From positions 1 to 35,008 of the forward strand of contig JAFRBB010000006.1 of NCBI GenBank assembly GCA_017405085.1: 35,008 nucleotides of DNA, in the 5' to 3' direction. Positions 363-30,208 of the stretch are shown one piece after another. A program made the position numbers and the translations under genes. Under the pieces are notes generated by a model. That model was not told where the DNA came from. It made no database searches and was given only the letters and a program-made list of their open reading frames with translations. Numbering within the stretch: the stretch's first letter is position 1; each line of letters opens with the position of its first letter. This DNA is from Eubacteriaceae bacterium (lineage in GTDB: Bacteria > Bacillota > Clostridia > Eubacteriales > Eubacteriaceae).

Positions 363-662
363 TCAATAGTGTAGCATTCAAAAGAGTGGTAATCTATCGT
401 CAAAATTGCCATTTCCACCGCCAAACCGATGAAAAACCCGGCGATGGAGGCAAAAAAAGCGAATTCTTAAAACTTTTTTGAATCTACCCTAAAAATTTCT
501 TTATTTCAAAAGAATACTATTGTATTGAACGATATGACAGTTCAATGGAATGAGAAAGGAGGCAATAACCACAGAAAAAGCGAGGAAAGTTTGAAAATTT
601 TATATTTTGTCCCCCAACGGTTTTTTAGGATTCAAAATTTATTTTTTATGAAAGGAAAATCC
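363..662 (+). promoter_or_regulatory. Long leader of ChW protein 1 with a strong hairpin
   Basis: About 290 nt lie between the promoter and the start codon. A two-part hairpin spans 406-453: TTGCC pairs with GGCAA, and CCACCGCC (415-422) pairs with GGCGATGG (440-447) with one mismatch, around a 17-nt loop. No T-run follows, so it is not an intrinsic terminator. A strong AAAGGAGG lies near 553-560 with no normal start codon at a usable distance. I do not recognise a known riboswitch class. Confidence 0.45.
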
Positions 663-3600
663 ATGAAAGCAAAATCTAAAGTTTTGTTAGGCTTGCTCGT
701 CGCGTTGGCGATGATGGTGTTGGCTGTTCCGGCATTCGCCGCCACCACAACCTTCGACGTCACCCTGACCCCGAGCAAGGATGAAGGCCTTGTTGTCTAT
801 ACCGGCAACACCGGCAAACTCAACATCGCCATCAAAGACGATGATAACGTCGGTCAAAATGATGTCTACGAAATCGAAGTGACAGACAAATATGCAACCC
901 AAACTGAAAATGAAAAAATCAAATTCGAAAAAATGACATTAATGGGACCGAGCCCCTCCGGCGATTTGGATGTGCCCACTACCAGCACAACCAAGGTTGA
1001 CAAACACCCCGTTGATATCACCATTACCAAAACCAAAGGTGAAGGTCAGGGTTCCCAGACCATCACCGGTTATGTAGTTGATGTTAAACAAAATCTCGGC
1101 GCTGTTTTGTCAATCGAAAATCTGAAAGCTGCTAAATCCGCGGCTACTGGGACTCATGATATTTTAGCTCGTCCCCTTATCACAGGTGACTCCGCTGAAA
1201 TTTCCGTGGTTCCCGAAAAAGGTTCCGAATCTGATTACAAATATCAATGGCAGATTGCCAAAGTTGGTGCCGATGTCACCGCCGCTGCATATCTCGATTC
1301 AAAAGTATTTGAAGATATTTCCGGCGAAACCGGCGCGACCCTGCAGAAAACCGTCGATATCGACGACAATGGCAAATTTGTCCGCTGTATTGTCACCGAT
1401 AGCGATGGCAACAAAGCTGTAGCCAACGTTAATGTACCGGCGGGCACAACAGATGTGGATGGAACTGCCACAACGACTGCTTACACAGCATACTGCGTGC
1501 GCCTCGATGTCACCGACAATAAATTGGTTTGCGCCAGCCCGACTGAAGATCAAGACGTCTCCGTCATCATGACTCAAACCAAAACTTTGGCCGTGACAGC
1601 CAAAGCCGGCAGAGAACCCTATAATTATAAATGGAAAAAAGACGGCGTGTATCTGGACAGCACCCAAGAAACTTATGTTTCCGGTGAAACCACAGCGAAC
1701 CTGGTGATCACAGGAGACGCTGACAAAGAAGCCGAAGGCGATTATGTCTGCGAAATCACCGACGATCGTAACTCAAAAGTTACCTCTCCTGTCTTCCACG
1801 TCACCGTGGCTGACATGCCCAAATTGACGCTGGAACCCTCTGTCGTTGCTCAAAAAGCGGAATACAACGGAGATAAAACTAGCGCTGATTTTGGAAAACC
1901 GGTTGATGGTAACGGTTCTTCTTTCGTCGCGACCGATGACGGCGAAAAACCCTTAACCTTAACCGCCAATATCGAAAATCCCGCTGATGTCAAATCCGTC
2001 AAATGGGAAACTACCGCAGATGGAACTACCTGGAAGAGCGAAACTCAGGGTCCGAGCACCACTTTCGAAGTCGCTAATCCCTCAGCTGTCAAAGGTGTCA
2101 GAGCCACTGTCGAATTCAAAGACATCCCCTGCACAGCGGGCACCATTGACAAAGCTTTGGTTTACACCACCAACATCTATGTTACCGATGGTTCCTTAAA
2201 CGGTAATGTCTACACCTATATCGGCAACGACGCCACCAAAAACGAAGCTGATAAAGATCCTGAATTTGTCGTCACCCTTCCTGAAGGTGTGTACTGGAAA
2301 ACAGGCGCTGACACAAACTACGCAAAAAATGTAAGCTTAACAGCAGCTACGACTGGTGCCTTTACAATCAACTTGCCGACAACTACTGAAGTTGATAAAG
2401 CTTACTCCGCGGTAGTTACATCCGCTCCGACAGTTGGTGAACGTACAGGTTTGGCCTTTAAAGTTGCTCCGGCAAGCTATCCTGTGACTGTGTCTAAACC
2501 CTATGTCAAAAACATGACCGTCACAATTCCGGCGGATTTCCTTTCCGACAAGCATGACGGTTCCGGTACCCATACCGGTGATGTGGTTCTCCCCGTCAGC
2601 GACGGCGTGGGCTACAAAATTGTCCGTAAAGCGGAAGCCTCGGACTTGACCCTCAAGAAAACATCTGTTCCCTATAATACCAAAGAACAACCCGCCGAAG
2701 TTGTTGCCGCCGGCGACGCCAAAATCGGCGAAATCAGCGAAGTTCGCTATATGCCTAAAGCGACTGCCTTAGCCGGTGTTAACGATGGAGGAACTGCTGT
2801 TCCCTTCATTACAGAAATCGGAACTACAGGTAAATATGCGGTAAACACCAATGGTTTTACTGCTCACCCCGCTGTTGAAAAAGCATTCTACGCAGCACTC
2901 ACTACTGATGTGCCGGTCGATACCGGTGACTACATTGTGGTTTGCAACGTTGCCGCTTCTGACGAACTCGAAAAAGCCGAAAACGTTCTGGTACCCGATG
3001 TTTACACTATCTCACCGGCTAATACGAACACTGTCGAAAAAGATCCGGAAACATTCTTCACCTGGACCAAAGAAAAAGTCTATAACGGCCAAGATCAGGA
3101 TGCCGATGTCAAATTCGCTGACGGCATGACCAAAGCCGGTAAGATTAAAAAAGTTACTTATAAGACAACTGACAAAAACGGCGTTCTAGTGACCGTACAG
3201 CCCAACGCTGTTGGTAAATATCAAATCTATGTGACAACCGAAGCGGATCCCGAAGAAGTTGGAACAAATGAAAATGTTGGCGTTATTCCGTCAGGTGAAG
3301 CTGGAGATACCGATCCCGCTTACATTGGCGATTTCAGAATCACCAAACTCCCCTTGAGTAAAGACCTCTTCAAGATGGATCCCACTGAAGCGGACTACAC
3401 CGGCAACCCCATCGTTCCGGAAATCACTACCGATACAGCCGGCGTGGGCAAAATCGCAGCAGTCCACTACTATCCCGAAGGTTCTGAACAAGAACTCGGC
3501 AGCGCTCCGGTAGCCGCTGGTGTCTACACCGTCAAGATTGATGTTGAAGAAGGCGAAAATTACGAAGCCACCAAAGAACCTCTTGAAGTTGGCACCCTCA

Positions 3601-4169
3601 CCATCAACTCTCAAGAAACCAACAAACCCACCCTCTACATGCGCGGTCACGTGCAGAACAAAGGTTGGGACGCTGAACTCACCGAAGTGAAACCCGGTTC
3701 CGAAACCATGATCGGTACCACCGGTTCCGCTCTCCGTGTTGAAGCCATCGATATCGTTGTTCCCGAAGGTTACACCGTTGGCGGATTCGCTCACGTCCAA
3801 AACGAAGGCGATGTCACTGTCACAGAAGTTCCCGCTGACGCGGTTGACTATCCTGCCGGTGTTCCGGAAGGTTACAAAGTCTATCGTTTCGGTTCCACAG
3901 GCAAAGGTCAACGTCTCGAAGCCATCCAGACCGAAATCAAAGACGCCTCTGGCGCTCTCCTCGAAGGTCTGAAATACCAAGTCCATGTTGAAAACAAAGC
4001 TTGGATGGGTTATGTGGCTAACGGTTCCTTCGCCGGTACCAGAGCGTTAGGTCTCCGTCTCGAAGCGCTCCGCTTCGCGTATGAAGGCACTCCCGCTCCC
4101 ACCGAACCGGAAGCTCCCGCTGAACCGGAAACTCCCGCTGAAGAAACTCCCACCAATCCCGCGGAATAA
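663..4169 (+). CDS. Secreted ChW-repeat surface protein 1 with Ig-like and MBG-like domains
   Basis: This is a 1168-residue exported protein of unknown ligand. I chose ATG 663 over the in-frame TTG at 525 because it gives a clean signal peptide (residues 1-26, ending VPAFA), follows an AAAGGA-type site, and matches the starts of its two paralogues. In order, it has Ig-like domains at about 178-260 and 305-383 (the second with an Ig-like GDYVCEITD strand), divergent beta-rich segments to about 640, three MBG-like repeats at about 665-982 (YTG... G.YTVKID pattern), three ChW repeats at about 990-1139, and a Pro/Glu-rich tail from about 1140 to the end. The first ChW repeat keeps the N-x-G-W core, the second lacks the Trp, and the third has AW. 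There is no LPXTG motif or C-terminal membrane segment. ChW repeats occur in clostridial secreted proteins; binding or adhesion is inference. It shares its C-terminus and downstream DNA with ChW protein 2. Confidence 0.88.
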   Translation: MKAKSKVLLGLLVALAMMVLAVPAFAATTTFDVTLTPSKDEGLVVYTGNTGKLNIAIKDDDNVGQNDVYEIEVTDKYATQTENEKIKFEKMTLMGPSPSGDLDVPTTSTTKVDKHPVDITITKTKGEGQGSQTITGYVVDVKQNLGAVLSIENLKAAKSAATGTHDILARPLITGDSAEISVVPEKGSESDYKYQWQIAKVGADVTAAAYLDSKVFEDISGETGATLQKTVDIDDNGKFVRCIVTDSDGNKAVANVNVPAGTTDVDGTATTTAYTAYCVRLDVTDNKLVCASPTEDQDVSVIMTQTKTLAVTAKAGREPYNYKWKKDGVYLDSTQETYVSGETTANLVITGDADKEAEGDYVCEITDDRNSKVTSPVFHVTVADMPKLTLEPSVVAQKAEYNGDKTSADFGKPVDGNGSSFVATDDGEKPLTLTANIENPADVKSVKWETTADGTTWKSETQGPSTTFEVANPSAVKGVRATVEFKDIPCTAGTIDKALVYTTNIYVTDGSLNGNVYTYIGNDATKNEADKDPEFVVTLPEGVYWKTGADTNYAKNVSLTAATTGAFTINLPTTTEVDKAYSAVVTSAPTVGERTGLAFKVAPASYPVTVSKPYVKNMTVTIPADFLSDKHDGSGTHTGDVVLPVSDGVGYKIVRKAEASDLTLKKTSVPYNTKEQPAEVVAAGDAKIGEISEVRYMPKATALAGVNDGGTAVPFITEIGTTGKYAVNTNGFTAHPAVEKAFYAALTTDVPVDTGDYIVVCNVAASDELEKAENVLVPDVYTISPANTNTVEKDPETFFTWTKEKVYNGQDQDADVKFADGMTKAGKIKKVTYKTTDKNGVLVTVQPNAVGKYQIYVTTEADPEEVGTNENVGVIPSGEAGDTDPAYIGDFRITKLPLSKDLFKMDPTEADYTGNPIVPEITTDTAGVGKIAAVHYYPEGSEQELGSAPVAAGVYTVKIDVEEGENYEATKEPLEVGTLTINSQETNKPTLYMRGHVQNKGWDAELTEVKPGSETMIGTTGSALRVEAIDIVVPEGYTVGGFAHVQNEGDVTVTEVPADAVDYPAGVPEGYKVYRFGSTGKGQRLEAIQTEIKDASGALLEGLKYQVHVENKAWMGYVANGSFAGTRALGLRLEALRFAYEGTPAPTEPEAPAEPETPAEETPTNPAE

Positions 4170-8394: not shown

Positions 8395-11300
8395 ATGAAA
8401 GCGAAAACAACATGGTTGATCGGCTTGTTGATCGCCTTGATGATGGTCGTCACCGCCGTGCCGGCCTTCGCGCAGGACGAACAAACAGCCGAACCCGCGA
8501 ACCAAGATGTTGCCGTTGAAGCGCAGGATGATGAGCCTAACGGTATAAATGTGACCGGGTTTAGCGCGACAAAACCCAGAGCCTATATCGGAGGTAAGAT
8601 CAAGTTTAATGTGACCTTCAGCAAAAACACTTCTGACAATCTTTCGTATAACATCAAGATTACGGATATCACAGAAGCCGTAACAGGAAAAGCAGCTACT
8701 GCTACTACTCCCCAGGTTGCTCCTACGATGAACGCTGTTACTGTGAATAATTATTCGGTCGACACTATGCCCACAACAAACTCCATTGAGATTGAAAGTG
8801 ATCCAATTAATAATGGGACACTAACAGTCATCGGGACACACACTTTTAAAATCACCGTAACTCCGAAAAACGGCCAAGCAACCGATTTGACCGCAAGAGT
8901 CAACGTTGAGGTGCGTGAAGCCCTCTCCGGTTATCAAACAGCGTATACCGAACTAGACGAAGACGGTACAACCTACGTCTTAAAAGGAGAAATCGGTCAG
9001 GAAATACCCCTTTCCGCTTTCGCCAGCGGCGGCTATAACGGCTACACCTATGAATGGCAACGTTCGGTAGAAACCGGCGCGGCTTCTCCTCAAGTCATCG
9101 ACAATAACGCTTGGCAAACATTTGCCACCGGCAATCAGAATACAGTGGCCAAATACACCATGAAATACGGTGATGACAATCACTACATCCGCTGCATCAT
9201 CAAAGACGGCGACGGCAACCAGATTGTCGCTCCGATTCAAGCCAGCAATGGTGGAATTACATCTCAACTCGCTGTAAAACTTCAACCTTCATCCCAAAAT
9301 ACCATCACCATCACGAACCCCGCGGCGGAAAGCACCGTGAAGAAAATGGTTGGGCAGCAATTCCAAACACCAAAAATTGCAGCGACAGGCGGCACCGGCC
9401 CTTCTCCGACTTATACCTACCAATGGAAAAAAGGCGCCGCCAATCTCACAGAAACCGGCTGTAATACTGACCAATATACAATCGCTCACGTCAAACCGGC
9501 CGATGCCGGCAACTACACTTGCGTCGTGACTGACAGCCAAAATAAAGACATTAAAGCCACTTCCAAAAACACCCATTTGGATGTTGTGGCGGCGCCGGAA
9601 TTTTCCATCACGCCGAGTAGCGGCACCAACACCGTGAACACTGAGGCTACATGGGATGAAACAGCAACTCCGGTACCCGGAAACGGTGAAGTGACCCTCA
9701 CCTCCGACCAGGCGGCCAAAGGATTGACCCTTAACTTAAATATCACCGGCGATTTGGGCGGAAGCACCATCAAATGGGCAGGAGGAAGTCTCGCAGGGAA
9801 AACTCAATTTGATAATAAAACCAGTGCCACCATTGACGGTCCGGTAACAGCCGGCGATTACACAGTAACAATGGGCTATCCCTCCTATGAATTGAGCGGA
9901 TCTGGCAAAGAAGCGACCTATACCCTCAAGGTGAAAATTGTCGGCGGCTCCATTACTGCCACCGACGGCGGCATCTATAAACAAGCCGGCAACGGCGCCG
10001 ACACAACCAAAACCGTCAGCCCCGAATATACGTTAAACCTGCCAAGTGGTATGAAATTTAAAAATGTTGCTATTGATAATGATATCTCGGATTGGATTAC
10101 GGACAAACCCGACGGATTGACAGCCAAGGTCACAAAAGTGGAAGTGTTGAATAACGCGTTGACATTTAAGTTTACAGGACCCGCGACGAAGTATCCCTTT
10201 GTCGGCGATTTGAAAGTCACCGTACCGCAGGCAAACATCCAAGACGGTACAGCCGCTGTCACCTTCCCCGTCAGCTCCGCCTATGGCTATCAGATTACAG
10301 ATGCCGTTGACGTAAATGATATCGCGATTAAAACACCTGGCTCGGACAACAGAACAAACGTCTATTACGGCAAGCCGATTCCCGCGGAAATTGTCGGCAG
10401 TCCGGATGCGACCATCGATCTCGGCACAGTCACCGTGAAATATTTGGATAAAGACACGTATGAGAAAATCGCAAATGACAATACTGGCAAAAATAGCGAT
10501 GAAATCAAGGCGCTCCAATATGCCGCAGCGTCTACTACCGCGCCCACCAATGCCGGCACCTATTATGTCTGGGCTAATATAACCAAGAATACCTCAAAGG
10601 CTTATCCCGACGGCGCAACAGGGCTCGGACCGAAGGAATATAAAATCAACCCTGCCTCAAGCGCGACAATGGGTCTCGATAATGGCACCGTGGCAGAAGA
10701 AAAAGACTCTGAAATATATTTCACCTGGACCAAATCCAAGAAAAAAACCGGCAACAAGCTCGACGCTGATGTGGCATTTAAATCCGGCCTGACCAAAACC
10801 GGTAAAATCACCGAAATCAAGTATAAACAAGGTGGCAAGGAAACCATCCCGGTGGATGTGGGAACATACGACATTTATATCAAAACCGCCGATGACGGCG
10901 ATAAAAACAAATGCGAAAATGTCGCCACTTTCAGTACATCTACAAAAATCGGTACCTTCGAAATCACCGACAAGGATCCCGTGCCGGAAACCAAACTTGA
11001 TCCCACCAAGGATCTCTATCAAATGAGCCCGACCTCGGCAACCGCCGACGGCAAGGAACACACCACCACCGTCACAGCCAAGACTGCCGTTGCTGGCAAA
11101 GTCACCGCCACCAACTACTATGACAAAAACGGCACCAAGGTCAGCGGCAGCCCGACCAAAGCCGGTGAATACACCGTCAAAATCGACACCGAGGAAAACG
11201 ACACCTACAAAGCGGCCAAAGACCTCGAAATCGGCACCTTCACCATCAAAGGCGCGACCCCGACGGCGTCCATGTACACCATGGATCCCAAATCCGGTTC

Positions 11301-12258
11301 CTCCGTCACCGCTAACGGCAAAGGCCAAGGCGTCACCGTGACCGCCGATGATCCCAAAGTCGCCGGCGCCCCGACGGTCAAATACTATGACGCCGCCGGC
11401 AAAGCCGTCTCCGGTCAACCGGTCAAAGCCGGAAAATACACCGTGAGAATCGACACCGCCGCCACCGACTATTACGAAGCGGGCAAAGACATCGCCATGG
11501 GTACCTTCGAAATCACCCAAGGCACACCCACCAAAGCGATGAACCTCTACAAACTCGATCCCGCCACCAATCCCTACACCGGCAAAGCCAACCCCACCAA
11601 AGTGGTTGCCGCCGGGGATAACGGCGCCGGCGAAGTGGAAGCCATCCACTACACCAGAAAAACCACCAAAGTCAAAGAATCCGACGAAGGTCCCGTCGCC
11701 ATCGGTGTCTACACCGTCACTGTCGACGCCAAAGCCAGCGATTCCTTCAAAGCGGTGAAAGGTCTGGAAGTCGGTGACTATGAAATCATCGATCAAGGCA
11801 TCTTCCTCCGCGCCCATGTGGAAAACCTCGGTTGGGACAAAACCATGACCGAACTGGAACCCGGCACGGAAAAAACTGTTGGAACCGAAGGCCGCGCCCT
11901 CCGCGTGGAAGCCATCGATATCGCGGTGCCTGCCGGCTACAGCGTCGAAGGATTTGCCCACATCCAAAATCTCGATGACACCAAATGCGTCGTCTTGAAA
12001 GGCAACGAAGCGGATTATCCCGCCGGTGTGCCCGCGGGCTACACGGTCTATCGCTTCGGCTCCACCGGCAGAGGCCTGCGGATGGAAGCCATGCAGATCA
12101 ACCTCAAAGACGCCTCTGGCACCACCATGTCGCAGCTCAAATACTGCGTCCATGTGGAAAACGACGGATGGCACGCTTTCGTGAATAACGGCACCTTCGC
12201 GGGAACCCGCGGCAGAGGCCTCCGTCTGGAAGCGCTGCGTTTCGCTTACGCCAAATAA
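8395..12258 (+). CDS. Secreted ChW-repeat surface protein 2 with Ig-like and five MBG-like domains
   Basis: This is a 1287-residue exported paralogue of ChW protein 1. AAAGGA at 8384-8389 precedes ATG 8395, and residues 1-26 are a signal peptide ending VPAFA. Ig-like domains lie at about 192-282 and 311-399 (GNYTCVVTD). MBG-like repeats lie at about 642-754, 773-859, 873-953, 959-1043 and 1050-1132; the third and fourth are the most regular (AGEYTVKID and AGKYTVRID, then IGTFTI/MGTFEI). Three ChW repeats fill about 1137-1287; the first has NLGW, the second lacks the Trp, the third has NDGW. The protein ends right after the last ChW repeat, without the Pro/Glu tail of protein 1. It has no sortase motif or membrane anchor, so retention would depend on the ChW repeats or other contacts. 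The ligand is unknown; adhesion or matrix binding is inference. Confidence 0.88.
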   Translation: MKAKTTWLIGLLIALMMVVTAVPAFAQDEQTAEPANQDVAVEAQDDEPNGINVTGFSATKPRAYIGGKIKFNVTFSKNTSDNLSYNIKITDITEAVTGKAATATTPQVAPTMNAVTVNNYSVDTMPTTNSIEIESDPINNGTLTVIGTHTFKITVTPKNGQATDLTARVNVEVREALSGYQTAYTELDEDGTTYVLKGEIGQEIPLSAFASGGYNGYTYEWQRSVETGAASPQVIDNNAWQTFATGNQNTVAKYTMKYGDDNHYIRCIIKDGDGNQIVAPIQASNGGITSQLAVKLQPSSQNTITITNPAAESTVKKMVGQQFQTPKIAATGGTGPSPTYTYQWKKGAANLTETGCNTDQYTIAHVKPADAGNYTCVVTDSQNKDIKATSKNTHLDVVAAPEFSITPSSGTNTVNTEATWDETATPVPGNGEVTLTSDQAAKGLTLNLNITGDLGGSTIKWAGGSLAGKTQFDNKTSATIDGPVTAGDYTVTMGYPSYELSGSGKEATYTLKVKIVGGSITATDGGIYKQAGNGADTTKTVSPEYTLNLPSGMKFKNVAIDNDISDWITDKPDGLTAKVTKVEVLNNALTFKFTGPATKYPFVGDLKVTVPQANIQDGTAAVTFPVSSAYGYQITDAVDVNDIAIKTPGSDNRTNVYYGKPIPAEIVGSPDATIDLGTVTVKYLDKDTYEKIANDNTGKNSDEIKALQYAAASTTAPTNAGTYYVWANITKNTSKAYPDGATGLGPKEYKINPASSATMGLDNGTVAEEKDSEIYFTWTKSKKKTGNKLDADVAFKSGLTKTGKITEIKYKQGGKETIPVDVGTYDIYIKTADDGDKNKCENVATFSTSTKIGTFEITDKDPVPETKLDPTKDLYQMSPTSATADGKEHTTTVTAKTAVAGKVTATNYYDKNGTKVSGSPTKAGEYTVKIDTEENDTYKAAKDLEIGTFTIKGATPTASMYTMDPKSGSSVTANGKGQGVTVTADDPKVAGAPTVKYYDAAGKAVSGQPVKAGKYTVRIDTAATDYYEAGKDIAMGTFEITQGTPTKAMNLYKLDPATNPYTGKANPTKVVAAGDNGAGEVEAIHYTRKTTKVKESDEGPVAIGVYTVTVDAKASDSFKAVKGLEVGDYEIIDQGIFLRAHVENLGWDKTMTELEPGTEKTVGTEGRALRVEAIDIAVPAGYSVEGFAHIQNLDDTKCVVLKGNEADYPAGVPAGYTVYRFGSTGRGLRMEAMQINLKDASGTTMSQLKYCVHVENDGWHAFVNNGTFAGTRGRGLRLEALRFAYAK

Positions 12259-13046: not shown

Positions 13047-13098
13047 AAAAACAAAGAAACCAAGAAACAAAGAAAAATGATTCTAAGGGGGAACGATG

Positions 13099-13464
13099 AT
13101 GAGACCATCAACATTCAAAACGCTTGAACAAAAACGCGTGAGCATATCCGCCAAACGGCAAATAACCATTCCGCAAAAATTTTATGCCGAATTGGGCTTT
13201 GAACGAGACGCGATCTGCACCATGACAGATGGCATGCTCATCATCGAACCGATGACGCGGATGTCCGGCGGTGAATTCGCGGAGAACATATTGGCGGATT
13301 TGATCGCGGAGGGTTATGCCGGTCAAGAATTATTAATTAATTTCAAAAGACGTCAGGCCGAGATCAGACCGGCAGTCGAAAGCCTTTTGGAGCAAGCGCG
13401 CGACGCGGCAAACGGAAACGGGGAATATGCCGGATATGATGACATCTTTGATTCGGAGGAATAG
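13099..13464 (+). CDS. AbrB/MazE-type antitoxin of a type II toxin-antitoxin pair
   Basis: This is a 121-residue protein. Two adjacent ATGs (13096, 13099) are possible; the second sits 7 nt from AAGGGGG and is preferred. Residues of about 10-50 fit the swapped-hairpin AbrB DNA-binding fold: VSISAKRQITIPQKFYAELG followed by a short strand ending MLIIEPM. The remaining acidic, helical part (rich in Glu/Asp, ending DDIFDSEE) is the expected toxin-binding region. It should bind and neutralise the product of the next gene and repress its own promoter. The stop lies 2 nt before the toxin start, so the two are translationally coupled. The family assignment rests on the N-terminal motif. Confidence 0.82.
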   Translation: MRPSTFKTLEQKRVSISAKRQITIPQKFYAELGFERDAICTMTDGMLIIEPMTRMSGGEFAENILADLIAEGYAGQELLINFKRRQAEIRPAVESLLEQARDAANGNGEYAGYDDIFDSEE

Positions 13465-13466
13465 GG

Positions 13467-13772
13467 ATGGCTGAACTCAGAGTGCTGCCCCCGGCGAGAC
13501 GCTTTATTAAGAAAATCAAAGATAAAGAACTGAAAAAGCTGTATCAACAGGCAATCGATGAAATTTTGGCCGATCCATCCGTCGGAGAAGATAAACACGG
13601 CGATTTGGCAGGGTTGAAAGGCTATGATATCTATTATCGCAAGATTAATTATGAGTTGGCGTATACTGTTGAGTATATCGAGAATGAAGCAGGCGATACG
13701 GAAGTGGTGGTCGTCATTTTGGCCGGAACAAGAGAAAATTTTTATGAGGCACTCAAGCGTTATTGGAAGTGA
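13467..13772 (+). CDS. RelE/ParE-superfamily toxin
   Basis: This is a 101-residue basic protein with the RelE/ParE layout: an N-terminal strand (LRVLPPARRFIKKIKD), a two-helix hairpin (ELKKLYQQAIDEILADPSVGED), then strands with the family's GLKGYDIYYRKINYELAYTVEY and a late VVVVILAGTRENFYEAL. GGAGGA at the end of the antitoxin gene serves as its ribosome binding site. RelE members cut mRNA on the ribosome, while ParE members poison gyrase. The sequence alone does not say which applies, though the Tyr/Arg-rich core and the terminal ENFYEALKRY resemble the RelE/YoeB side. No terminator follows; the next DNA is repeat. Confidence 0.8.
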   Translation: MAELRVLPPARRFIKKIKDKELKKLYQQAIDEILADPSVGEDKHGDLAGLKGYDIYYRKINYELAYTVEYIENEAGDTEVVVVILAGTRENFYEALKRYWK

Positions 13773-21713: not shown

Positions 21714-21742
21714 TTGCCACGGCAAAAAAAACTTGTTATAAT
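21714..21742 (+). promoter_or_regulatory. Promoter of rpoB-rpoC
   Basis: TTGCCA at 21714-21719, a 17-nt spacer and a perfect TATAAT at 21737-21742. An A-rich stretch (AATTAAAAAAAACTTAAA, about 21690-21707) lies directly upstream and resembles an UP element. The leader to the rpoB start is about 305 nt. Confidence 0.85.
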
Positions 21743-21875
21743 ATCAAATTACAACGAGTTTTTTTGTTTTTTTGATGAAAAATTCAAAAAAATCGCGGAA
21801 AAATTCAAAAAAAGATTAAAAAAATTGCGTGACAGCAAAACAAATGTTTAAAAGAAAAGGTTTGGATGGGACGCG

Positions 21876-21979
21876 AAAACGCTGATCAAAGGCGTTTTGA
21901 AGGCATTTTTTTCACGGTGCCGGATGGGTTCTTTTTGACTGATCAAAGGTCAAATCTCGCATCGAGACCTTTCTTTTTT
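21876..21979 (+). promoter_or_regulatory. Attenuator-like rpoB leader with two identical-loop hairpins and a terminator
   Basis: Hairpin A: AAAACGC (21876-21882), loop TGATCAAAG (21883-21891), GCGTTTT (21892-21898). Hairpin B: TTTGAC (21934-21939), the same loop TGATCAAAG (21940-21948), GTCAAA (21949-21954). The stems differ but the loops are identical. An intrinsic terminator then forms from AAAGG (21945-21949) with CCTTT (21968-21972) and TCTCG (21955-21959) with CGAGA (21963-21967), followed by CTTTTTT. Its left arm overlaps hairpin B, so the two structures exclude each other, as in attenuation. The trigger is unknown. Before hairpin A, 21750-21875 is A-rich with no other clear structure. 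Confidence 0.6.
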
Positions 21980-22055
21980 CATGTCCGAAATTAGGTGGGG
22001 AAGCGGCGGCGCCGCGTCCGAAAACAATGGATCACAACGTAAAGGAGAAACCGAA

Positions 22056-25000
22056 ATGGTACAAGTTCATCCCGTGAAAAGCGGCCTGAGAACCAGACAG
22101 AGCTTTTCCAAAATCAAAGAGGTTTTGGAAATGCCCAATCTGCTCAAGGTCCAGCTGGATTCCTACAACTGGTTTATAAACAAAGGGCTTCGGGAGGTCT
22201 TTGAGGACCTGCACGAAATCACCGACTACACCGGCAACCTCGTGCTGGAATTCATCGACTATTCCCTCGAAGGCGAACCCAAATATACCATCGAGGAATG
22301 TAAGGAACGCAGTCAGACCTATTATCAACCGCTGAAAGTGCGCGTCCGCCTGACCAACAAAGAAAAGGGCGAAGTCAAAGAACAGATGGTCTATATGGCC
22401 GATATGCACAAAATGACCGAAACCGGCACCTTCATCGTCAACGGCGCCGAACGGGTCATCGTCAGTCAGCTCGTCCGCTCCCCGGGATGCTATTACACCA
22501 TCTCCCGGGACAAAACCGGTAAAAAGCTCTACGCGTCCACCATCATCCCCAACCGCGGCGCCTGGCTTGAATACGAATCCGACTCCAACGATTTGCTCCA
22601 CGTCAAAATCGACCGAAACAGAAAGCTCCCCCTGACCTCGCTGATCCGCGCCTTCGGTCTGGGCACCGACGACGCCATTCTCGACACTTTCGGCGAGGAT
22701 CCCCGCCTGGTGGAAACCTTGAGAAAAGACATCGAAAACAAACGCAAGGATCTGGAAGCCAGAGGCTATGATATCGGCAATGAGGAAACGGGCTTTGCCG
22801 ACATCGCTGTCGATGAACGGGACGGTCTCATCGACATTCACAAACGTCTGCGTCCCGGTGAACCGCCGACGGAAGACAGCGCCCGCTCCCTGCTCAACAC
22901 CATGTTTTTCGACGAACGGCGCTACGACCTCGCTCGGGTCGGCCGTTATAAATACAACAAAAAACTGTCCCTGGCCAACCGCATCAACGGACAGATTTCC
23001 GCCGAAACCGTGACCCATCCCGAAACCGGCGAAATTCTGGCAGAACCTGGACAGAAGTTTGACAGAGAAACAGCCTGGGCCGTGCAAAACGCCGGCGTGG
23101 AAAGCGTCGATATCGCCTGCACCTACAATGGGGAAGAGGCGGTGTGCCGAGTCATCGGCAACGGTTTTGTCGATATCCACGCCCAGGACATTCCCTTTGA
23201 TATCAGTGATATCGAGATCAAAGAACTGGTCTACAAACCGTCTCTCGATGCCATTTTGGAAGACGACACCCTCACCGATGAGGACAAACACGACGCCATC
23301 AAATACGGCATGGACATGCTGATGCCCAAGCACATTTTGACCAGCGATTTCTTCGCCAGCGTCTCCTATTTCCTCGGTCTCGAATACGGCATCGGCCGCG
23401 ATGACGACATCGACCATTTGGGCAACCGCCGTCTGCGCAGCGTCGGCGAGCTTCTTCAAAATCAATTCCGCATCGGCATCACCCGGATGGAACGGATGGT
23501 CCGCGAACGGATGAGCGCCCAGGACGACGAAATCCTTACGCCCCAAAACCTCATCAACACCCGTTCAGTCAACGCGGCGCTCAAAGAGTTTTTCGGAAGC
23601 TCTCAGCTTTCCCAGTTTATGGACCAGAACAACCCGCTGTCCGACCTCGGCCACAAGCGTCGTCTGTCGGCTTTGGGTCCCGGCGGTCTCTCCCGTGAGC
23701 GCGCCGGTTTTGAAGTTCGCGACGTACACCACAGCCATTACGGCCGCATGTGCCCGATCGAGACTCCCGAAGGTCCCAACATCGGCCTCATTGGTTCTCT
23801 GGCCACCTATGCCAGAGTCAACGAATACGGCTTTATTGAATCCCCCTACCGCAAAGTGGTCAACGGCGTGGCGACGGACGAAGTCAAATACCTCGACGCC
23901 GAGGAAGAAGGGGAATATACCATTGCCCAGGCCAATGAGCCCCTGGATGAAAACGGACGCTTCACCAATCGCCACATCACCTGCCGTAAAGGGCTCAAGC
24001 GTGATTTTGTCATGGCGGATCCCGACGAAGTGGACTTCATGGACATCTCGCCGCTTCAGGTTGTCTCCGTCGGCTCGGCCCTGATTCCCTTCCTGGAAAA
24101 CGACGACGCCAACCGGGCCCTCATGGGCGCCAACATGCAGCGTCAAGCCGTGCCGCTGCTCATCCCCAAGGCTCCGGTGGTCGGCACCGGCATGGAAGCC
24201 AAAGCCGCCCGCGACTCCGGCGTCTGCGTCATTGCCAAGCGCTCGGGCACCGTGGTCTATGTTTCGGCGGACACCATCCGCATCCGCCCCGACGAAGACG
24301 AAGGCACCCTGGACATCTACAACCTGCTCAAATACAAACGCACCAACCAGGGCAACTGCTACAACCAAAAACCCCTAGTGAGCAAAGGACAGCACATCGA
24401 CAGCGAGGAAATTATCGCCGACGGTCCCGCCACCGAAATGGGTGAGCTGGCCCTCGGCCGCAACGCCTTGATCGGGTTTATGACCTGGGAAGGTTACAAC
24501 TACGAAGACGCCGTCCTCCTAAACGAAAATCTTCTGAAGGAAGACAAATACACCTCCATTCACATTCAGGAACACGAATGCGAAGCCAGAGAGACCAAAC
24601 TCGGTCCCGAAGAGATCACCCGGGACATTCCCAACATCGGGGAAGACGCCATCAAAAACCTTGATGAAGACGGGATTATCTATGTCGGCGCCGAAGTCAA
24701 ATCCGAAGACATTCTGGTCGGGAAGGTCTCGCCCAAGGGTGAAACAGACTTAAGTCCCGAGGAAAAACTGCTCCGGGCCATCTTCGGTGAAAAGGCCAGA
24801 GAAGTCCGCGATACCTCCCTGCGCATGCCCCACGGGGAAGAGGGAATTGTCGTCGACGTCAAGGTCTTCTCCCGGGCCAACAAGGACGAGGATTTAAAAC
24901 CCGGCGTCAACACCATGGTGCGCGTCTATGTCGCCACCAAACGCAAAATTTCCGTCGGTGACAAAATGGCCGGCCGTCACGGCAACAAAGGGGTTATCTC

Positions 25001-25886
25001 CCGCATCCTGCCCCAGGAGGACATGCCTTTCCTCCCCGACGGCACGCCCCTCGACATCGTCCTCAATCCTTTGGGGGTTCCCTCCCGTATGAACATCGGG
25101 CAGGTCCTCGAAGTGCATTTGGGTCTGGCCCTCAAAGAGCTGGGCTGGCACATTGCCACACCGGTCTTTGACCCCGCCGGCGAAAAGGATATCGAAGAAT
25201 TGCTCAAAAGAGCGGGTCTGCCCGGCGACGGCAAGATTCAGCTCTATGACGGGCGCACCGGCGAACCCTTTGACAACAAAGTCACCGTCGGCTACATGTA
25301 TTATCTCAAGCTTCACCATCTGGTCGATGACAAAATGCACGCCCGCTCCAACGGCCCCTACTCGCTGGTCACCCAGCAGCCTCTGGGCGGGAAAGCCCAG
25401 TTCGGCGGACAGCGTTTCGGGGAAATGGAAGTCTGGGCGCTGGAAGCCTACGGCGCCGCCCACACCCTTCAGGAAATTCAAACCATCAAATCCGACGACG
25501 TGGTCGGCCGGATCAAGGCCTACGAAGCCATCATCAAAGGCAAAAACATTCCGAAGCCCGGTCTGCCCGAGGCCTTCAAGGTCATGCTCAAAGAACTGCA
25601 AAGTCTGGCGCTGGACGTCACGGTTTACGACAAAAAGGCCGGCAAAATGGATGTCCTCGAAATGGACAACGCCCAGGAAGCCTATGATAACGGCGAGTTC
25701 GAACGCCATGATCACCGCGAGGAATCCCGTCTGGACATCGACGATTCCGGCGACGGCATGATCGCCGATATGCAAGACGACGGATTTTACGATGATGTCG
25801 ACGACGATGACGGCGCCACCGATGATGCTTTCACCGATATGATCAACATCATCAGCGATGACGAAATCGACGGCGATTTGTCTTAA
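22056..25886 (+). CDS. rpoB: RNA polymerase beta subunit
   Basis: This is a 1276-residue core RNA polymerase subunit, forming part of the active site and the rifampicin pocket. ATG 22056 follows AAAGGAG (22041-22047); the in-frame upstream start at 21981 lies just past the leader terminator and lacks a site. Conserved regions run through the protein: [35 protein letters not shown] with [12 protein letters not shown] (the rifampicin region, wild-type in appearance), [43 protein letters not shown], and the C-terminal [18 protein letters not shown]. The last 50 or so residues are strongly acidic, with runs of Asp, beyond the usual end of the core. rplJ-rplL, the usual upstream neighbours, are absent; rpoC follows after 19 nt. 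Confidence 0.98.
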
Positions 25887-25905
25887 TTGGGAAAGGAGCA
25901 GCAAA

Positions 25906-30123
<4,218 letters not shown>

Positions 30124-30136
30124 ACCTTAAAAAAAC

Positions 30137-30167
30137 GGCAGTCCGATTGACGGATTGCCTTTTTTTT
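30137..30167 (+). terminator. Intrinsic terminator of rpoB-rpoC
   Basis: GGCAGTCCG (30137-30145) pairs with CGGATTGCC (30151-30159), one G-U included, around a 5-nt loop and followed by eight T. It separates rpoBC from the ribosomal-protein operon. Confidence 0.9.
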
Positions 30168-30178
30168 GCTCACGCATC

Positions 30179-30208
30179 TTGACAAAGTCAAAGGGATTTT
30201 GTTATACT
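30179..30208 (+). promoter_or_regulatory. Promoter of the L7Ae-rpsL-rpsG-fusA-tuf unit
   Basis: TTGACA at 30179-30184 and TATACT at 30203-30208 with an 18-nt spacer, immediately after the rpoC terminator and 50 nt before the next start codon. Confidence 0.85.

Follow-up and report, generated by a model that had tools for sequence, protein, structure and literature searches.

What sets the amount of core RNA polymerase in a bacterium is, to our knowledge, little understood outside E. coli, where rpoBC is co-transcribed with rplJL and its output is set by partial termination or feedback upstream of rpoB. The stretch of Eubacteriaceae bacterium DNA analysed here (35,008 nucleotides of contig JAFRBB010000006.1, hereafter the window) presents the same loop twice in its rpoB leader. 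A promoter specific to rpoB precedes the element, and rpoB itself follows it (Table 1). The two hairpins described in the original prediction, with different stems, an identical loop and C-G closing pairs, are all present, and we refer to them as A and B.

Table 1. Features of the rpoB leader and its surroundings, in window coordinates.
Feature	Positions	Strand	Details	Basis
Sigma-70 promoter	21714..21742	+	TTGCCA-17-TATAAT with TG extension	11/12 matches
P1 5' strand (basal stem)	21850..21868	+	AAAAGAAAAGGUUUGGAUG; inner part GAUG at 21865-21868	RNAalifold in two clades, own-versus-cross test, folds
P2 5' strand	21869..21872	+	GGAC; encloses hairpin A, pairs with 21928-21931	Hand-trimmed alignment; untrimmed in clade 2; weaker in clade 1
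Hairpin A (P3)	21876..21898	+	Loop UGAUCAAAG at 21883-21891	Folds, conservation
Middle hairpin	21902..21921	+	GGCAUU...GGUGCC; variable, missing in some genera	Folds
P2 3' strand	21928..21931	+	GUUC	Hand-trimmed alignment
Hairpin B (P4)	21934..21954	+	Loop UGAUCAAAG at 21940-21948	Folds, conservation
Local terminator-like hairpin	21945..21972	+	-6.8 kcal/mol; excludes hairpin B and P1	Pairing not conserved
P1 3' strand	21960..21972	+	CAUCGAGACCUUU	Own-versus-cross test, RNAalifold
U-tract	21970..21979	+	Directly after P1; candidate premature termination site	Near-fixed distance in relatives
rpoB RBS	22041..22047	+	AAAGGAG	Sequence
rpoB (RNA polymerase beta)	22056..25886	+	ATG at 22056	Relatives' alignment begins at 22056
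rpoC (beta')	25858..30123	+	Upstream ORF start overlaps rpoB	ORF coordinates
Intrinsic terminator after rpoC	30137..30159	+	9 bp, 6 GC, U8	
Separate promoter for L7Ae-like gene, rpsL, rpsG, fusA, tuf	30179..30208	+	TTGACA-18-TATACT	Sequence; recurs elsewhere

The repeat shared by hairpins A and B is, in its full length, the 11-mer CTGATCAAAGG, at 21882-21892 and 21939-21949. Both hairpins are closed by a C-G pair and then by U.G, and because the U.G pairs, the true loop is the seven nucleotides GAUCAAA. The position beside the loop is U.G in 31 hairpins and C-G in one, and this replacement in a relative argues that the position is a pair and the loop seven nucleotides long. In a set of 33 different hairpins (A and B together), pairing is kept in 96.1% of cells, and seven of the eight pairs show changes in both strands. 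The covariation score of 0.92 compares with 0.27 in shuffles, and sliding the partner strand gives no more than 0.24; GAUCAAA itself is invariant (33/33). Because the stems change their sequence yet keep their pairing around an unchanging loop, the twin hairpins are evidently a selected RNA structure. The loops, being strictly conserved while the stems covary, look like recognition sites, which supports the suggestion that they are recognised by a protein or RNA.

Could the pair be something other than an RNA structure? Two hairpins sharing an identical loop of at least 7 nt arose in 30 of 3000 dinucleotide shuffles of the window's leader, so that the chance of a twin loop within a single leader is about 1%, and conservation in relatives rules chance out. 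Chance apart, the pair might be DNA operator repeats, or part of a leader peptide with repeated -DQR- codons, and we regard this whole group of explanations as very improbable. Both loops do fall within one open frame of 42 codons in the window, as the peptide would need. However, the spacing of the loops is not a multiple of three in 7 of 20 leaders, most leaders have no ORF across both loops, the stems covary in a manner that a DNA site would not require, and conservation across the family counts against all three. An antisense partner within the leader was also considered and rejected, since TTTGAT there is not conserved. Matches to CTTTGATCA in six genomes include the rpoB sites themselves and show no obvious clustering as from rRNA operons.

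Relatives were collected by the N-terminus of RpoB, the family being Eubacteriaceae (the set includes Eubacterium aggregans, E. barkeri, Pseudoramibacter porci and rumen Eubacterium). GAUCAAA is found in 38/38 rpoB leaders of the family. A search for the paired-loop motif at rpoB of relatives, proposed earlier as a check, recovered it: 20 leaders from eight genera carry two GAUCAAA hairpins (start-to-start spacing 33-68 nt), and 18 leaders of one genus, g3, which we infer to be Acetobacterium-like, carry a single copy, placed in a longer hairpin with an internal loop and in a different leader layout. This g3 element (L040-L057), one AACUGAUCAAAGGGGA in its longer hairpin, lies about 95 nt after the predicted start and has a variable outer stem. 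The g3 leader, otherwise different, is itself highly conserved, for example in CACAACAGGCAAAUUUGGG...UAUUUUUGCGAGGGGUGAU before rpoB.

Outside the family, the paired motif was absent from 32 rpoB leaders of other families of the same order and class, and rpoB leaders of other families gave no identical-loop hairpin pairs except for one chance A+T case (L093). We scanned 84,980 named genomes for TGATCAAAGRN{20,50}CTGATCAAAGG, finding 55 loci. Both stems reach at least 4 bp in only ten, all of them Eubacteriaceae rpoB leaders; an eleventh locus (L115), with a bulge in stem A, is also a Eubacteriaceae rpoB leader. A covariance model of the hairpin gave two strong matches per twin-loop genome, both at rpoB, with one or no match at the strict cut-off in two genomes whose hairpins are less regular (G006 and G002). 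Among 391 genomes of the class there were few other matches, one of them at order level (G055); those inspected among the rest were single and lay within open coding frames. Judged by the genome scan and the inspected covariance-model matches, the element is found only at rpoB and only in Eubacteriaceae. A genome-wide regulon was rejected: the window's genome contains 19 TGATCAAAGG sites, and only the two at rpoB form hairpins presenting the loop.

The twin hairpins are parts of a larger fold common to the leaders, in which P1 closes the whole, P2 surrounds hairpin A (together with the middle hairpin in some genera), hairpin B follows and the 3' strand of P1 comes last. The spacers are constant: P2 follows P1 after no more than 1 nt and is separated from hairpin A by 2-4 nt and from hairpin B by 2-3 nt, while 4-6 nt lie between hairpin B and P1. 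In an alignment of P1, P2, A and B that was built from this hypothesis, with the P1 and P2 segments picked by hand, 98% of cells are paired (at most 48% when slid) and 21 of 23 pairs have changed on both sides. Untrimmed RNAalifold runs recovered P1, A and B from eight leaders of clade 1, and P1, P2, A and B from five leaders of a second clade; P2 is the least certain helix in clade 1. These alignments show a domain closed by P1, with P2 bearing hairpin A, a separate hairpin B and the same loop on both. The layout proposed originally is supported in that the element lies between a promoter of its own and rpoB, and it overlooked the basal stem P1.

One way for such a domain to be held together is by RNA alone. 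The loops contain the self-complementary UGAUCA, present in both loops of the twin-loop leaders, and their palindromic GAUC might kiss and so fold the domain, which would then respond to a small molecule, an ion or temperature, or be a constitutive structure. We consider this distinctly unlikely: the loop is kept equally well where only a single copy exists, the AAA outside the palindrome is just as invariant, no compensating loop change occurs in 38 leaders, and the distances from junction to loop differ between A and B.

Which stem, then, ends in the U-tract? The hairpin put forward in the original prediction, a terminator-like structure overlapping hairpin B with a U-tract to 21979 and preceding the rpoB ribosome binding site, is present in the window, where it overlaps loop B and the 3' arm of hairpin B. 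We used a fixed-window own-versus-cross test on 13 representative leaders, ranking the duplex formed by each leader's own strands against between-genus chimeras (chance rank 0.5). Outer P1 beats the chimeras, with a mean rank of 0.16 (the test fails for L030, L032 and L039), whereas the local terminator, which pairs AAAGG of loop B with CCUUU, is no better than chimeras at 0.49. The local hairpin is weak, at between -0.3 and -7.2 kcal/mol, and none was seen in L034 or L039. Wherever a leader has a U-tract, closure by P1 gives a fold that is 1.8 to about 14 kcal/mol more stable than the combination of the 5' part with the local terminator. In most genera the 3' strand of P1 continues straight into a U-tract, and in 13 of 20 leaders this tract starts 28-30 nt after GAUCAAA of loop B begins. 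An A-tract faces it on the 5' side of P1; the U-tract is weak or missing in three leaders (L029, L034 and L063). The ranks, the fold stabilities and the position of the U-tract indicate that the conserved terminator-like element consists of P1 and the U-tract and has the twin-loop domain as its head. At the sequence level the leader has the anatomy of a transcription attenuator, that is, a promoter, a leader and a U-tract-ended stem before the first gene.

These results bear directly on the idea of an ANTAR-like switch, in which a factor on both loops would stabilise hairpin B, exclude the local terminator (21945-21979) and raise rpoBC transcription. In the targets of ANTAR proteins (EutV, NasR, AmiR), recognition takes place at the loops, which are hexanucleotides that begin with A and have G as their fourth letter (PMC3369931). 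The rpoB leader recalls them in its paired shared-loop hairpins, in its conserved loop letters and in a second hairpin beside a terminator; there are two tandem hairpins in 20 leaders and one in the Acetobacterium-like genus, and in the window hairpin B does overlap the local terminator. However, the rpoB loop is GAUCAAA, of seven nucleotides and U.G closed (33/33 hairpins), rather than a hexanucleotide with A1 and G4, and on this loop rule we rejected identity with ANTAR target RNAs. Both hairpins, moreover, are enclosed by P1, and relatives do not conserve the overlap between hairpin B and the weak local terminator. The ANTAR domain PF03861 occurs in 38 of 40 family genomes, and none was found in G002 (97% complete), which carries the element. 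We think a switch of this kind quite unlikely. The original proposal of a switch between hairpin B and the local terminator is not supported by the rank and stability comparisons, and as a negative feedback device it would have the wrong sign, since a factor stabilising hairpin B would raise read-through.

An alternative in which the U-tract is no terminator is a post-transcriptional role, either in mRNA processing or stability (e.g. as an entry site for RNase III or RNase Y) or in control of rpoB translation. It would accommodate the genera in which the U-tract is missing or weak, and the ribosome binding site is only some tens of nucleotides to about 180 nt downstream. Nevertheless, that site lies outside the conserved structure in the leaders examined, and the near-fixed position of the U-tract and the facing A-tract fit a terminator better, so we judge a post-transcriptional role unlikely.

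If the leader is a control point, what does it control? From the promoter position, the RNA is predicted to start near 21749 in the window, and a similar strong sigma-70 promoter lies 5' of the element in all 24 family leaders checked, where loop A follows the predicted start by 37-135 nt. The start of the window's leader (21759-21829) is occupied by A+T-rich repeats, both inverted and direct, with a long T-run facing A-runs; the sister genome L027 does not keep their sequence. Upstream of rpoB, its frame stays open as far as an ATG right after the U-tract, without a ribosome binding site, both here (21981-22055) and in the sister genome; we rejected this ORF start at 21981, since it has no ribosome binding site and relatives start at 22056. 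At the other end of the unit, a promoter comparable to that at 30179-30208 follows rpoC in five further genera, one of which also has a clear terminator there (making two genera with the window). With a promoter between them in six of six genera examined, rpoBC is, as far as promoter placement can tell, uncoupled from the str operon in Eubacteriaceae. The upstream neighbours of rpoBC vary among genera (an FGGY kinase in the window, other genes elsewhere). Given its own promoter, the promoter or terminator after rpoC and these differing neighbours, rpoBC looks like a transcription unit of its own with the leader as its control point.

We compared the element with known leaders. The Lacto-rpoB RNA motif (RF01709), which takes its name from rpoB, is a candidate structured RNA found in Firmicutes (PMC2864571) and is listed only for Lactobacillales. 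Its covariance model matched none of 40 Eubacteriaceae genomes, with Lactococcus lactis matched as a positive control, and seven leaders of the family likewise showed no match even when E values up to 10 were allowed. No family of Rfam 15 (including r-protein leaders, riboswitches and T-box) reaches or nears its gathering score over the leader. In E. coli, L4 binds a hairpin of the S10 leader and, once bound, favours termination at the U-run that forms the base of this hairpin, ahead of the operon that encodes L4. A similar protein-promoted termination at a U-run before the operon is what we propose for rpoB; the rpoB leader differs in targeting rpoBC, in its two identical loops and in having no Rfam r-protein leader match. 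As in E. coli rplJL-rpoBC, output would be set upstream of rpoB, but in Eubacteriaceae rpoBC has its own promoter and a structured leader. Within the partial coverage of the literature searched, no rpoB leader of such a kind is described, and the element looks like an apparently undescribed, lineage-specific leader RNA with attenuation-like anatomy.

The explanation we prefer, to which we would give an even chance, is that of a cis-regulatory leader RNA specific to Eubacteriaceae rpoBC: a factor docked on the twin loops would stabilise the domain closed by P1 and so bring about premature termination at the U-tract, as feedback on RNA polymerase. From the observed structure, conservation and position of the element we infer a binder, termination, its sign and the feedback. 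One trans-acting factor would dock on both of the twin loops, because two identical, invariant loops are carried on stems of free sequence; it would probably be a protein that is dimeric or has two binding sites. Binding would lock the domain and P1, so that P1 and the U-tract act as an intrinsic terminator before rpoB; it should favour termination because P1 closes the domain and abuts the U-tract. Without the factor, P1 closure would be slower or incomplete and RNA polymerase would read through. Since rpoBC is the sole target, the signal would most simply be how much RNA polymerase is present, or else a factor bound to the enzyme, with negative feedback as the result; this is the weakest step. 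Against this explanation, P1 pairs over a long range, with about 100 nt enclosed, and its base is rich in A+U, which is unusual for an intrinsic terminator; the leaders with a weak or absent U-tract, those in which the outer P1 test fails, and the single loop and other layout of the Acetobacterium-like genus also count against it.

A more specific form, possible but in our view doubtful, is that RNA polymerase, as free beta/beta' or as holoenzyme, or else a factor bound to it, is the direct ligand of the twin GAUCAAA loops, in which case the leader would be a sensor of enzyme concentration, terminating its own transcription when the enzyme is in excess. The significance of the element is that it is compact, strongly conserved and dedicated to rpoBC, combining an exact recognition loop with a predicted site of output. 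Eubacterium limosum and other tractable acetogens allow it to be tested, and its regulator should be reachable by pull-down.

The window has other features away from rpoB. Two Clostridiales-1 RNA copies (RF01699; 4212-4372 and 12297-12457, at 105 and 103 bits) each lie shortly 3' of a gene for a large ChW/Ig-like surface protein (525-4169 and 8395-12258). A small gene pair at 13096-13772, in which a weak YwpF-like match (13096-13464) is followed by a ParE-like toxin (PF15781, 13467-13772), is possibly a toxin-antitoxin module.
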